Source: Mesorhizobium sp. CAU 1732
GTDB taxonomy: Bacteria > Pseudomonadota > Alphaproteobacteria > Rhizobiales > Rhizobiaceae
NCBI RefSeq assembly: GCF_039888675.1
Contig: NZ_JBDQQR010000001.1
Span: 62,001 to 126,000 of the forward strand
DNA length: 64,000 bases
Direction: 5' to 3'
The stretch's first letter is position 1, and the number at the start of each line of letters is the position of its first letter. The translations under genes and the position numbers were made by a program. Under the pieces are notes generated by a model that did not search any database, was not told the origin of the DNA, and saw only the letters and a list, made by a program, of their open reading frames with translations. Below are positions 3,858 to 45,233 of the stretch, in pieces.

Positions 3858-4459
3858 TCATTCTTGGTCTGACCGGCTCGATCGGCATGGGCAAATCGAC
3901 CACGGCAAAGATGTTCGTCGAGGCCGGCGTGCCGGTTCATGATTCCGACGAGACGGTCCATCGGCTCTATTCCGGGCGCGCCGCGCCGCTGATCGAGGCC
4001 CGGTTTCCCGGCGTGACGGCGAATGGCGCGGTCGATCGGCAGAAACTTGCCGGTGAGGTTCTCGACAATCCCGCCGCGATGCGCGATCTCGAAGCGATCA
4101 TCCACCCGCTGGTGCGGGCTGAGGCCGACGCATTTCTGACGCGCAACCGGGACGCGGGCACGCCCGTCGTGGTGCTCGACATCCCGCTCCTGTTCGAGAC
4201 CGGCGGCGAGGGCCGCGTCGATCGCATCGTCGTCGTGACCGCGCCGGCCGACGTTCAGCGCGAGCGCGTTCTGGCCAGGCCCGGCATGACGGCGGAAAAA
4301 TTCGAGGCGATCCGCGCCCGGCAGACCCCGGATGCCGAAAAGCGCGCGCGGGCGGACTACGTCATCGATACGAGCCTCGGGCTGAAAGCGGCCAAAGCGA
4401 GCGTGAACGACATCGTCCGCCAACTGTCTGGGGGCGATCGGGCCGAGACATCACGCTGA
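3854..4459 (+). CDS. coaE: Dephospho-CoA kinase
   Basis: CoaE phosphorylates the 3'-hydroxyl of dephospho-CoA, the last step of coenzyme A synthesis. The 201-residue product opens with the Walker A motif GSIGMGKST (residues 8-16) and has the family segments DIPLLFE and [16 protein letters not shown]. It overlaps aroE by four bases. Together with coaA at 18.2 kb the window encodes the first and last enzymes of CoA synthesis from pantothenate. Confidence 0.96.
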
Positions 4460-41414: not shown

Positions 41415-41541
41415 GGGACCGATCCTGCTGTCGCGAGATGCACTGCGTTCACGTGGAGCCTAGAACCACTTCGATCCCGATGGAATCGAAATGGCGCAGT
41501 GTGCTGCACTTGCGCAGCGACTTTTTCACGTGGCGCTTCGC

Positions 41542-42462
41542 CTAGGCTTCGGCGCGCGCCTCGGTCACGGCGGGAACCGGCGGGAGGATGTCGGCGAGCG
41601 GCTCTTCGGTCGCCTTTTCCTTGAGCAGGATCTTGAGCAGGCGCGACACCGTGGCTTTCATATCGAGACGCGAGACGACCATGTCCACCATGCCGTGCTC
41701 CATCAGATATTCGGAGCGCTGGAAGCCTTCGGGCAGCTTCTCGCGGATCGTCTGTTCGATGACGCGTGCGCCCGCGAAGCCGATCACCGCGCCCGGCTCG
41801 GCGATATGGATATCGCCCAGCATCGCATAGGAGGCGGTGACGCCGCCGGTCGTCGGATTGGTCAGGACGACGATGTAGGGAAGGCCTGCCTCCTTGAGAC
41901 GATCGACCCCGACCGTGGTGCGCGCGAGCTGCATGAGCGACAGGATGCCTTCCTGCATGCGCGCCCCGCCCGAGGCGGAAAAGAGCACCAGCGGCTTTTT
42001 CTGTTCGATCGCGGTTTCGAACGCCTTGATGATCGCCTCGCCGGCAGCCATGCCGAGCGACCCGCCCATGAAGGAGAAATCCTGCACCGTCACGACGATC
42101 GGCAGGCCTTCGATCGAGCCGGTTGCCGACACGACGGCGTCTTCGAGACCGGTCTTGGCCTTGTAGTCGCGCAGACGGTCCGTATAGCGCTTCTCGTCGC
42201 GGAATTTGAGCGGATCGAGCGCGACCTTGGGATTCTCGAGCAACGAATAGGCGCCGTCGTCCAGGAATGCCTTGAGGCGCTCCTTGGCCGTGATCTTCAT
42301 GTGGTAGCCCGACGAGGGGATCACGAACTGGTTCTGTTCGAGATCCTTGTGAAAGACCATTTCGCCGGTCTCGGGATCCTTGATCCAGAGATTGTCGGGC
42401 ATGTCGCGCCGGCCAAGCATCGAATTGATCTTGGGGCGGACGAAATTGGTGATCCAGTTCAT
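41542..42462 (-). CDS. accD: Acetyl-CoA carboxylase carboxyltransferase beta subunit, zinc-ribbon cysteines missing
   Basis: AccD with AccA transfers carboxyl from carboxybiotin to acetyl-CoA to form malonyl-CoA for fatty acid synthesis. The 306-residue protein has the crotonase-like core ([54 protein letters not shown]). The N-terminal zinc ribbon, which has four Cys in E. coli, here reads [11 protein letters not shown] and [10 protein letters not shown], so none of the four ligands remains. Loss of some ligands is known in relatives. Confidence 0.95.
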
Positions 42463-42501
42463 GGCAGGTCTCCGCTTCGGTCTGTGGAGAGGATGGAGCC
42501 G

Positions 42502-43341
42502 CTATTCGGCAGGAGCAAGGCGGGCCCGGCGCACGCCGTGGGCGAGACCGTCAACCAGCGTTGCGACGGCTTCGGCCGGATCGGCGGTGAGCTTGCCGTT
42601 GGCGTCGATAACGTTCGCGACGGCGTTGACGATCGCCGTGCCGACGACGACGCCGTCAGCCGACGCGCCGATGGCGCGCGCCTGCTCGGCGGTCTTGACG
42701 CCGAAACCGACGCAGACGGGCAGGTCGGTGTGCGCCTTGATGCGGGCAACCGCTGCGCCGACCTTCGATGTATCGGGAAGCGCCGAGCCTGTGATGCCGG
42801 TCATGGAGACGTAGTAGACGAAGCCCGACGTGTTCGAGAGCACCTTGGGCAGGCGCTTGTCGTCGGTCGTTGGCGTCGCGAGGCGGATGAAGTTGATGCC
42901 GGCGTGAAGTGCTGGCAGGCACAGCTCCTCGTCCATCTCGGGCGGCAGGTCGACGACGATCAGCCCGTCGATGCCGGACGCCTTGGCGTCAGCCAGGAAC
43001 CGCTCGACCCCGTAGATGTAGATCGGGTTGTAGTAGCCCATCAGGACGATCGGCGTCTCGTCGTCCGCCTTGCGGAAATCGGCGGCCATTGCGAGCGTCT
43101 TGGGAAGTGTCTGGCCGCCCTTGAGCGCACGCAGCCCGGCCGCCTGAATCGCGGGGCCGTCTGCCATCGGATCGGAGAACGGCATGCCGAGCTCGATCAC
43201 GTCGGCGCCGGCCTTTGGCAGCGCCTTCATGATCTTGAGCGACTCGTCGTAGCTCGGATCACCGCCCATGAAATAGGTCACGAGCGCCGGGCGCCCTTCG
43301 GCCTTGAGCTTCGCCATGCGGCGGTCGATACGGGTGTTCAT
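42502..43341 (-). CDS. trpA: Tryptophan synthase alpha subunit (frame open upstream into toxin gene)
   Basis: TrpA cleaves indole-3-glycerol phosphate and channels indole to TrpB. The 279-residue TIM barrel starts [20 protein letters not shown], with catalytic Glu in [17 protein letters not shown] and Asp in [11 protein letters not shown]. The ATG at 43341 has a ribosome site AGGAAGAAGG, so independent initiation is likely. However, the reading frame has no stop between the upstream toxin gene (ATG 43641) and TrpA, so a 379-residue toxin-TrpA fusion can also be made. Confidence 0.95.
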
Positions 43342-43641
43342 GTCGCCTTCTTCCTGAAGCCCCGCTTGCGCTGGATCGGCACGCTGATCCCAAACACGGA
43401 CTACCTCTATATTGTCTTTGGTTACGCGATAGATGATTGCAAACGGAAGACGCGGGATGCTGTATATACGAAGCCCTGTCTCGTCCACTGGCCTCCCGAT
43501 GTAAGGGTGGTCGGAAAGGGTGGCAACAGCTCTGACGTATTGCTTGGTGGCGCGCTCCGAACCTGCGTGAAAGATGCTGCCGTAATATTCCAGGAACCAA
43601 GCCAGATCGTCGTTGGCGGAAGCCAGGTAGACTAGCCTCAT
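43342..43641 (-). CDS. RelE/ParE-superfamily toxin, in frame with trpA
   Basis: The first 100 codons from ATG 43641 encode a RelE/ParE-like domain: [60 protein letters not shown]. Such toxins cleave mRNA at the ribosome or poison gyrase. Length matches the family up to VWDQRADP, but no stop codon follows. The codons run on as [10 protein letters not shown] into the TrpA ATG, crossing the trpA ribosome site. The start overlaps the antitoxin stop (ATGA). Base composition is visibly less GC-rich than trpA, suggesting acquisition. Whether toxin is made alone is not evident. Confidence 0.85.
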
Positions 43642-43904
43642 GAACGGCGGGGCTTCAGAAAGACGTCTGGTTCCGGTGGTTGCAGCTCATTTTCGGTGCC
43701 CCAGCTCTCGATCCAGCGATGCATAGCCTCGGCCGAGATGAAAACGCCCTTGTCAGCCTCTGCAATGCGTTCCTTCAACAGCCTGCGCTCGGTTTCGGAA
43801 CCCCGCAAAAAGGAAGCGTAATCGCGGTGCTTTTCATCCGCAAACGACGCGGCCTCCGCCTTCTCGATCTCCAAACCGCTTACCGTGTTCTCTCGTCTGG
43901 CCAT
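43638..43904 (-). CDS. Type II antitoxin partner of the RelE/ParE-like toxin
   Basis: The 88-residue protein lies directly upstream of the toxin with a four-base overlap, the usual antitoxin-first arrangement. It is mostly helical and charged ([20 protein letters not shown]) and ends in [20 protein letters not shown], a C-terminal pattern shared by small antitoxins found next to RelE/ParE toxins. No clear ribbon-helix-helix DNA-binding signature was picked out at the N-terminus. The pair sits between trpB and trpA on the same strand. Confidence 0.78.
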
Positions 43905-44012
43905 GTCGGATTGCCATGATCTCTTGTTCGGGCAAAGCTAGCACAGCCGGCCACTTGGCTCAAACCGTCCAGCTTCTTGTCGCCGCTCGCCTGGTCTATC
44001 GACCGTGCCCCG

Positions 44013-45233
44013 TCAAATCTCCATGCCCATCATGCCGGCCACGGTGTGCACGTCCTTGTCGCCGCGGCCGGAGAGGTTGACGATGATGATCTCGTCCTTC
44101 CTCATGCCGGGCGCGATCTTCATGGCGTGGGCGATGGCATGCGCGGATTCGAGCGCCGGGATGATGCCTTCGGTGCGGGTCGTGAGCTGAAACGCTTCCA
44201 TAGCCTCGTCATCGAGGATCGGCAGGTAGTCGACGCGGCCGCTGTCGCGCAGCCAGGAATGCTCCGGGCCGACACCGGGATAATCGAGGCCGGCCGAGAT
44301 CGAATGGCCGTCCAGAATCTGGCCGTCTTCGTTCTGAAGCAGGTATGTGCGGTTGCCGTGCAGCACGCCGGGCTTGCCGGCATTCATCGAGGCACAGTGT
44401 TCGGCGCCGTCGAGCCCCCGTCCGCCGGCCTCGATGCCGATGATCCTGACGTCTTTATCGTCGAGGAAGGGGTGGAAGATGCCGATCGCGTTGGAGCCGC
44501 CACCAACCGCCGCGATGACGACGTCCGGCAGCCTGCCCTCGCGCTCGAGAATCTGCTCTCGGGCCTCCGTGCCGATCACCGACTGGAACTCCCGCACCAG
44601 TTCCGGATAGGGATGCGGTCCGGCGGCCGTGCCGATCAGGTAATAGGTGTCCTCGACATTGGTCACCCAGTCGCGAAGCGCCTCGTTCATGGCGTCCTTC
44701 AAGGTGCCGTGCCCAGCCGAGACGGGCTTCACTTCCGCGCCCAGCAGCTTCATGCGGAAGACGTTGGGCTTCTGCCGCTCGACATCTGTCGCGCCCATAT
44801 AGACCACGCACGGGTAACCGAACCGCGCGGCGACGGTTGCGGAGGCGACGCCATGCTGACCGGCGCCCGTCTCCGCGATGATGCGCTTGCGGCCCATGCG
44901 CTTGGCCAGCAGGATCTGGCCGAGGCAGTTATTGATCTTGTGCGAACCAGTGTGGTTCAAATCTTCGCGCTTGAAGTAGATTTTCGCGCCGCCGAGATGC
45001 CTGGACAGGCCCTCCGCGTGGTAGAGCTTCGATGGCCGGCCGGCATAGTGCGTCGAGAGCGCCTGGAGTTCGGCCTTGAATGCGGGATCATTCTTCGCCT
45101 TGTCCCAGTGATCCTGAAGATCCAGGATCAGCGGCATCAGCGTTTCGGCAACGAAACGACCGCCGAAAATGCCGAACATGCCTTGCTCGTCGGGACCGGT
45201 GCGGAACGAATTTGGCGGCACGGGCTGGTTCAC
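44013..45233 (-). CDS. trpB: Tryptophan synthase beta subunit
   Basis: TrpB is the PLP enzyme that condenses indole and serine. The 406-residue protein has the PLP lysine in [20 protein letters not shown], the GAGQHGVA loop and the phosphate-binding GGGSNAIG. It lies 25 bases after trpF. The trpB-trpA junction, normally tight, is separated here by about 670 bases holding the toxin-antitoxin pair. Confidence 0.97.

Follow-up and report, generated by a model that had tools for sequence, protein, structure and literature searches.

A ParE-type toxin reading frame that continues into the tryptophan synthase alpha subunit in Mesorhizobium sp. CAU 1732

ParDE and PaaA2–ParE2 are the described toxin–antitoxin (TA) systems closest to the locus reported here. 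In the accessible text of PMC8630535, PaaA2 lacks a detectable DNA-binding motif, as do the antitoxins of the fused clade described below. A second precedent is provided by the SMC–HicA fusions (HicA class 14), in which, according to the accessible part of PMC10865869, a TA toxin domain is joined to a larger protein, as in the present case. For tryptophan operons, the accessible text of PMC2395257 reports genes without known function in the trpB–trpA interval as well as fusions of trp genes to unrelated genes (trpF–truA and trpE–PLPDE_IV), and the word 'toxin' is absent from its main text.

We analysed 64,000 nucleotides of Mesorhizobium sp. CAU 1732 (contig NZ_JBDQQR010000001.1, positions 62,001 to 126,000; hereafter the window), in which a TA pair is located between trpB and trpA (Table 1). 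The minus-strand gene order is presumably trpF, trpB, antitoxin, toxin frame, trpA and accD, with trpF, trpB and accD named by their sequences and order. The window toxin belongs to the same family as the ParDE and PaaA2–ParE2 toxins (PF05016), and the antitoxin gene is likewise located upstream and overlaps the toxin frame in the canonical type II layout. However, the window toxin has no stop codon and runs into TrpA, and the pair is inserted between trpB and trpA and lacks a third, regulatory gene. Unlike PaaA2, the antitoxins of the unfused relatives of the window pair contain an RHH region. In contrast to SMC–HicA and other toxin fusions, the fusion partner is a core biosynthetic subunit, the toxin is N-terminal and TrpA retains an internal start. 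The literature searched, which included the accessible texts of PMC2701414, PMC2395257, PMC10865869 and PMC8630535 and left subscription papers mostly outside, described neither a TA pair at the trpB–trpA junction nor a fusion of a toxin to TrpA.

Table 1. Features of the trpB–trpA region, in window coordinates
Feature	Position	Strand	Basis or remark
trpB, tryptophan synthase beta subunit, upstream neighbour	44013..45233	minus	named by position and trpB-like matches in relatives
Promoter-like TTGAGC-17-TAGCTT, TG before second hexamer	43935..43963	minus	trpB–antitoxin gap
Antitoxin, 88 aa	43638..43904	minus	C-terminal half conserved; N-terminal RHH DNA-binding region absent
ATGA overlap, antitoxin stop/toxin start	43638..43641	minus	sequence; weak SD at toxin start
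Continuous toxin, short linker and TrpA frame	42502..43641	minus	379 codons, ATG 43641 to TAG 42502
ParE-family toxin domain	43372..43641	minus	residues 1–90; PF05016 E 4.9e-11; AlphaFold pLDDT 88.5
Junction/linker codons 91–100	43342..43371	minus	stop-free; residues 94–99 modelled with pLDDT <50
AGGAAGAAGG, Shine-Dalgarno-like site for internal TrpA start	43346..43355	minus	within toxin-linker codons; -10.7 kcal/mol
trpA, tryptophan synthase alpha subunit, 279 aa	42502..43341	minus	PF00290, TIGR00262; sole match in genome

The initial annotation had claimed that the toxin frame from ATG 43641 continues without a stop into the TrpA ATG at 43341 and crosses the trpA ribosome site. Both points were confirmed: the toxin and TrpA form a single frame of 379 aa, and a Shine-Dalgarno (SD)-like site sits within the toxin-linker codons. 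A free small toxin with its own stop, as in a canonical type II system, was not found in the window, where the frame is open into TrpA. Residues 5–89 of the frame match Pfam ParE_toxin above the curated cut-off (43.5 versus 23 bits, E 4.9e-11), and residues 109–354 match Trp_syntA (E 1.6e-90). TrpA, which reads MNTRIDRRM from 43341, scores 254 bits against the TIGR00262 equivalog cut-off of 102. The AlphaFold model of the 379-aa protein (mean pLDDT 88.2, pTM 0.71) comprises a toxin domain and a TrpA barrel joined by a linker of low confidence at residues 94–99, and the modelled barrel matches solved TrpA chains in the PDB (5ey5, 5kmy and others). The N-terminus of TrpA points away from the TrpB interface, and thus a domain attached there would not have to obstruct the complex. 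On the plus strand opposite trpA and the toxin, a 714-aa open frame (41491–43635) is probably a GC-rich shadow frame.

The toxin domain adopts a predicted ParE/RelE fold. Of the 17 best rows listed in a PDB search with the model of residues 1–90, 14 are titled ParE or ParDE and the remaining three are 5ceg (twice) and PrpT; TMq ranges from 0.67 to 0.83. By TM-score, the best matches are the ParE proteins of PaaA2–ParE2 and of Mesorhizobium opportunistum, and 5cw7, 5czf, 6xrw, 5ceg and 8c24 appear near the top of the list. Cami1 (8phb, 379 residues), which we take to be a CARF–RelE fusion, is also among the fold-search matches. At the sequence level, the toxin matches solved ParE toxins with weak E-values (best, 2.7e-06), and 15 plasmid records contain relatives named RelE/ParE toxins (best identity, 44%). 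NCBIfam gave no meaningful match for the toxin or antitoxin, and defence-system models gave none for the four proteins searched. Elsewhere in the window genome, a remote toxin relative is found at G000:C1:1269339-1269596 (23% identity, E 2.3e-5).

A second trpA would render the fusion irrelevant, and this possibility is set aside given the one TrpA match in the window genome (G000). Single matches were likewise obtained in G291, G156 and G554. In addition to its main trpA, M. ephedrae (G226, contig C20) contains remote TrpA-like matches at 82546-83259 and 89408-90076 (44% and 29% identity).

How is the trpB–trpA junction organized in relatives? A trpA match was obtained in 148 of 150 relatives. 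The junction varies among 30 fetched loci, where a few bases, a TA pair or other genes separate trpB from trpA. The other genes, at L004, L005, L007 and L019 for example, are presumably cutA-like, ArsC-like and others, as judged by eye. The same TA pair lies between trpB and trpA in many relatives; a toxin relative was detected in 41 of 394 family genomes (E ≤ 1e-8), and the scan of named genomes yielded 33 loci. The junction comparison covers fetched loci (30 of the 45 listed matches, with L095 and L096 outside), and 32 distinct fetched loci have a toxin relative upstream of trpA, within 60 nt in 21 and farther away in 11. An alignment of relatives, which the initial annotation had proposed as a check, revealed that the toxin stop is present at 17 of these 21 loci and absent at four, all from one toxin clade; the loci were picked by similarity to the window toxin and hence are not a random sample. 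The stop overlaps the trpA start (ATGA or GTGA) in 12 loci and shortly precedes it in five, whereas the four stop-free toxins are in frame with trpA. Thus, a separate toxin is the usual state and an in-frame toxin is special, and the open frame of the window is more than a product of chance. Translational coupling, which had been offered as a tie between the toxin and TrpA, is supported as the common arrangement in relatives by their stop–start overlaps but not in the window, where the frame is continuous and such an overlap is absent. The junction resembles a hot spot for insertions, and the GC dip in the antitoxin (0.58) and toxin (0.55) versus trpB (0.64) and trpA (0.67) might fit an acquired pair. 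The toxins of L038 and L069 are broken, and their junctions were read from the last toxin piece. At the unfused L069 locus of M. ephedrae (from 4001), the toxin is frameshifted after approximately residue 33 and the shifted frame is open into TrpA over 382 codons, a different route into TrpA that possibly arose by chance.

An in-frame toxin is found in the window, in M. camelthorni (L062), in a Mesorhizobium MAG (L063, G554) and in G156 (L038); L033 of G291 is the same assembly and stretch as L062. The intact fusions comprise 379 aa in the window, 381 aa in M. camelthorni and 383 aa in the MAG. L038 keeps the in-frame junction, and its toxin is frameshifted mid-domain, possibly through an assembly error because the assembly consists of 770 contigs. 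In a toxin tree with few columns for 55 rows, unsettled bootstrap values and broken toxins represented by their longest piece, the four fused toxins form one clade (support 100/98), with the unfused L064 and L069 toxins beside it (99/92). The trees omit 10 duplicate loci, L031, L032 and short matches (<150 aa for trpA, <260 aa for trpB and <55 aa for the toxin).

The flanking genes tell a different history. In the trpB tree, the window falls in a starred seven-row set of itself, five same-genus genomes and one genome of another genus, and a single clade of the four fused rows is rejected (p-AU 0.0002). For trpA, p-AU is 0.017 for the monophyly of the four fused rows and 0.071 for the window and M. 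camelthorni alone. The fused cassette is patchy, occurring in one of 146 genomes of the MAG's genus (E 1e-15) and in one of three genomes of M. camelthorni's genus (E 1e-8); G156 is the only genome of its genus in the set. In the genus of the unfused G087, a toxin relative is present in four of four genomes. No new fused genome was found among the matches fetched from 396 relatives of G291. Vertical inheritance is therefore disfavoured by trpB, trpA and the patchy presence. Since the toxins form a single clade that trpB rejects, the fused cassette probably spread sideways, and its rarity within host genera fits such a spread. A short stretch of trpA was perhaps transferred as well. Across 17 overlapping 90-nt windows along trpA, the CAU 1732 sequence resembles M. 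camelthorni more than it resembles the same-genus L003 in the first four, and L003 is nearer in nine of the remaining 13. However, the same-genus L012 reaches 0.86 versus 0.88 in the first of them, and the likeness of the trpA 5' end to M. camelthorni is thus only a hint.

TrpA in the window can presumably still be produced as a free protein because a strong internal ribosome site is kept. SD strength was calculated from the 20 nt before the start codon against the anti-SD. The TrpA ATG of the window has the strongest value among the sites measured (-10.7 kcal/mol); elsewhere in the fused clade, the TTG of L062 has -8.9 kcal/mol and the ATG of L038 -7.5 kcal/mol, versus -6.0 kcal/mol at the TrpA start of the six nearest unfused loci. 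The pattern is uneven: the ATG of L063 reaches only -4.5 kcal/mol and its upstream TTG -8.9 kcal/mol, and strong sites also occur without a fusion at L058 (-8.3 kcal/mol) and L002 (no TA pair, -9.8 kcal/mol). The toxin start of the window has almost no SD (-1.2 kcal/mol). Given its strong internal start, the fusion may be a minor product in the window. The TrpA start of M. camelthorni (L062, about 4298-4312) lacks an ATG and instead reads TTG followed by ATC, and the next in-frame ATG lacks an SD (0.1 kcal/mol); hence, TrpA there either begins at the TTG or is supplied by the fusion. RNA folding around the start codons is ordinary (z 0.26, -0.69 and 0.49).

Upstream of the pair, a standard sigma-70 scan of 43300-44200 identified no consensus promoter, and a terminator search found none. 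The pattern TTG-N(16-18)-TGNTA, which was picked after the sequences had been viewed and applied to related loci, is present at nine of 11 TA loci, including three of the four fused ones, against a mean of 0.06 in shuffles. The TTG-N17-TGNTA element precedes both fused and unfused pairs and might also feed trpA.

Could the continuous frame reflect a neutral loss of the toxin stop? The fusion would then exist in traces or not at all, TrpA would derive solely from the internal start, and the toxin would be on its way to being lost. The strong SD and ATG within the window frame suit this alternative, as do the frameshifted toxins of L038 and the unfused M. ephedrae and the lack of a match to the TA pair in the trpB–trpA region of seven of seven same-genus genomes. 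If these frameshifts are not assembly errors, the toxin is dispensable in some lineages and is not needed for TrpA. However, intact fusions occur in three species, and their toxins and antitoxins are under purifying selection, with pN/pS values of 0.171, 0.233 and 0.262 for the toxin (Fisher p 4e-8 or lower) and 0.191, 0.234 and 0.165 for the antitoxin. NG86 omega is 0.14–0.18 for the fused toxins, 0.15–0.19 for three unfused pairs and 0.10–0.15 for fused-clade TrpA. With a single origin of the fusion, this constraint postdates it; with more than one, part of the selection is older than the fusion. Inactivation of the toxin through fusion, another suggestion of the initial annotation, is accordingly not borne out as decay in the three intact fusions, but the G156 toxin is frameshifted with its junction in frame. 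The TTG-only TrpA start of M. camelthorni and the spacer lengths also speak against a neutral loss. The spacer that separates the EE codons from the TrpA start measures 6 nt in the window, 9 nt in M. camelthorni (to TTG), 15 nt in L063 (to ATG) and 15 nt in L038. Because all are multiples of three, the frame survived at least two length changes, although frame-keeping alone is weak evidence, with a chance expectation of about 1 in 9. We consider a neutral stop loss unlikely, but not to be neglected.

The antitoxin differs between fused and unfused loci in its N-terminal half. A profile of the N-terminal 46 residues (RHH), trained on 14 unfused antitoxins, gives 71–95 bits for every one of the 16 unfused antitoxins scored (from 17 close loci without fusion, L080 being left out), and the two held-out sequences score 70.8 and 73.4 bits. 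In the fused clade, all four antitoxins score -1.5 to -0.3 bits, and a control profile of the C-terminal half gives 83–106 bits on all 20 antitoxins. With a score below 0 bits, as for the three other fused-clade antitoxins, the window antitoxin contains no RHH DNA-binding domain of the kind that would mediate autoregulation. Pfam RHH_1 (PF01402), scanned against six unfused antitoxins, passes its cut-off in L065 and L068 only, with L042 below the cut-off and L064, L069 and L089 without an RHH match, and thus Pfam alone would not separate the antitoxin groups. The best reading of these sequences is that the fused-clade antitoxin would not bind DNA. Stop loss and RHH loss fall on the same branch and therefore constitute a single co-occurrence, not a statistical correlation.

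These antitoxin features would also be expected if the enzyme-joined toxin were inactive and the antitoxin served as a folding partner of a harmless new domain that benefits TrpA, for example in stability or assembly. The conserved C-terminal half and absent DNA-binding half of all four antitoxins, together with the well-folded toxin domain in the AlphaFold model, are compatible with such a role. However, all 12 columns that are invariant across 23 toxins of the family are kept in the window and in the two other intact fusions, which indicates no visible loss of the toxin core, and we regard a harmless domain as distinctly improbable. A sequencing or assembly artefact, to which the short length change between the window junction and those of unfused relatives might point, or a chance open frame can be set aside as very unlikely and, for practical purposes, refuted, because intact in-frame copies with different linker lengths are found in M. 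camelthorni and an independent Mesorhizobium MAG.

The open frame is real, shared and constrained. We therefore return to the fusion itself, with the caveat that the preferred reading and its alternatives overlap. The locus probably encodes no free toxin; instead, the toxin would exist only as the N-terminal domain on some TrpA molecules, capped by an antitoxin that does not bind DNA. We propose that a ParE-type TA pair entered the trpB–trpA junction of Mesorhizobium-like bacteria. In most carriers looked at, it would have remained separate, combining an RHH antitoxin with a toxin stop overlapping or close to the trpA start, an arrangement in which trpA translation can be coupled. In one derived cassette, shared by the window, M. 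camelthorni, the MAG and G156, a stop-free toxin would have become in frame with TrpA next to an antitoxin without the DNA-binding region. The toxin would be made solely as part of toxin–TrpA, probably at a low level by re-initiation at the antitoxin–toxin ATGA, and the bulk of TrpA would probably come from the strong internal start at 43341. Some fusion protein is likely made because ribosomes that translate the toxin encounter no stop codon until TrpA ends. The antitoxin would be retained to cap the toxin domain. With the trpA ribosome site embedded in the toxin-linker codons, the TA pair would be hard to lose without disturbing trpA, and the toxin amount would follow operon translation. The production of a toxin–TrpA fusion beside normal TrpA, as suggested at the outset, is thus the best-supported reading. 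Both proteins may be made, and the fused toxin may be toxic, neutralised by its antitoxin, tied to TrpA function and of advantage to the cell.

As a further step, the toxin may have been domesticated. A fraction of TrpA would then carry a live ParE domain, with the antitoxin lacking a DNA-binding region as its dedicated cap. A shortage of antitoxin, such as through proteolysis in starvation, would cause a TrpA-borne growth arrest and link tryptophan synthase supply to growth control, and the pair would be hard to delete. We view this extension as possible but doubtful.

An annotation that starts trpA at 43341 would hide the fusion. If the fusion protein is made and active, it would represent a ParE-type toxin found solely as a domain within a core enzyme of amino-acid biosynthesis. 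Across species, a single locus offers a natural series of no pair, a separate pair, a stop–start overlap, a fusion and a fusion with a broken toxin. This series makes it possible to test how selfish TA pairs become chromosomally fixed and whether a TA toxin can join a metabolic enzyme.
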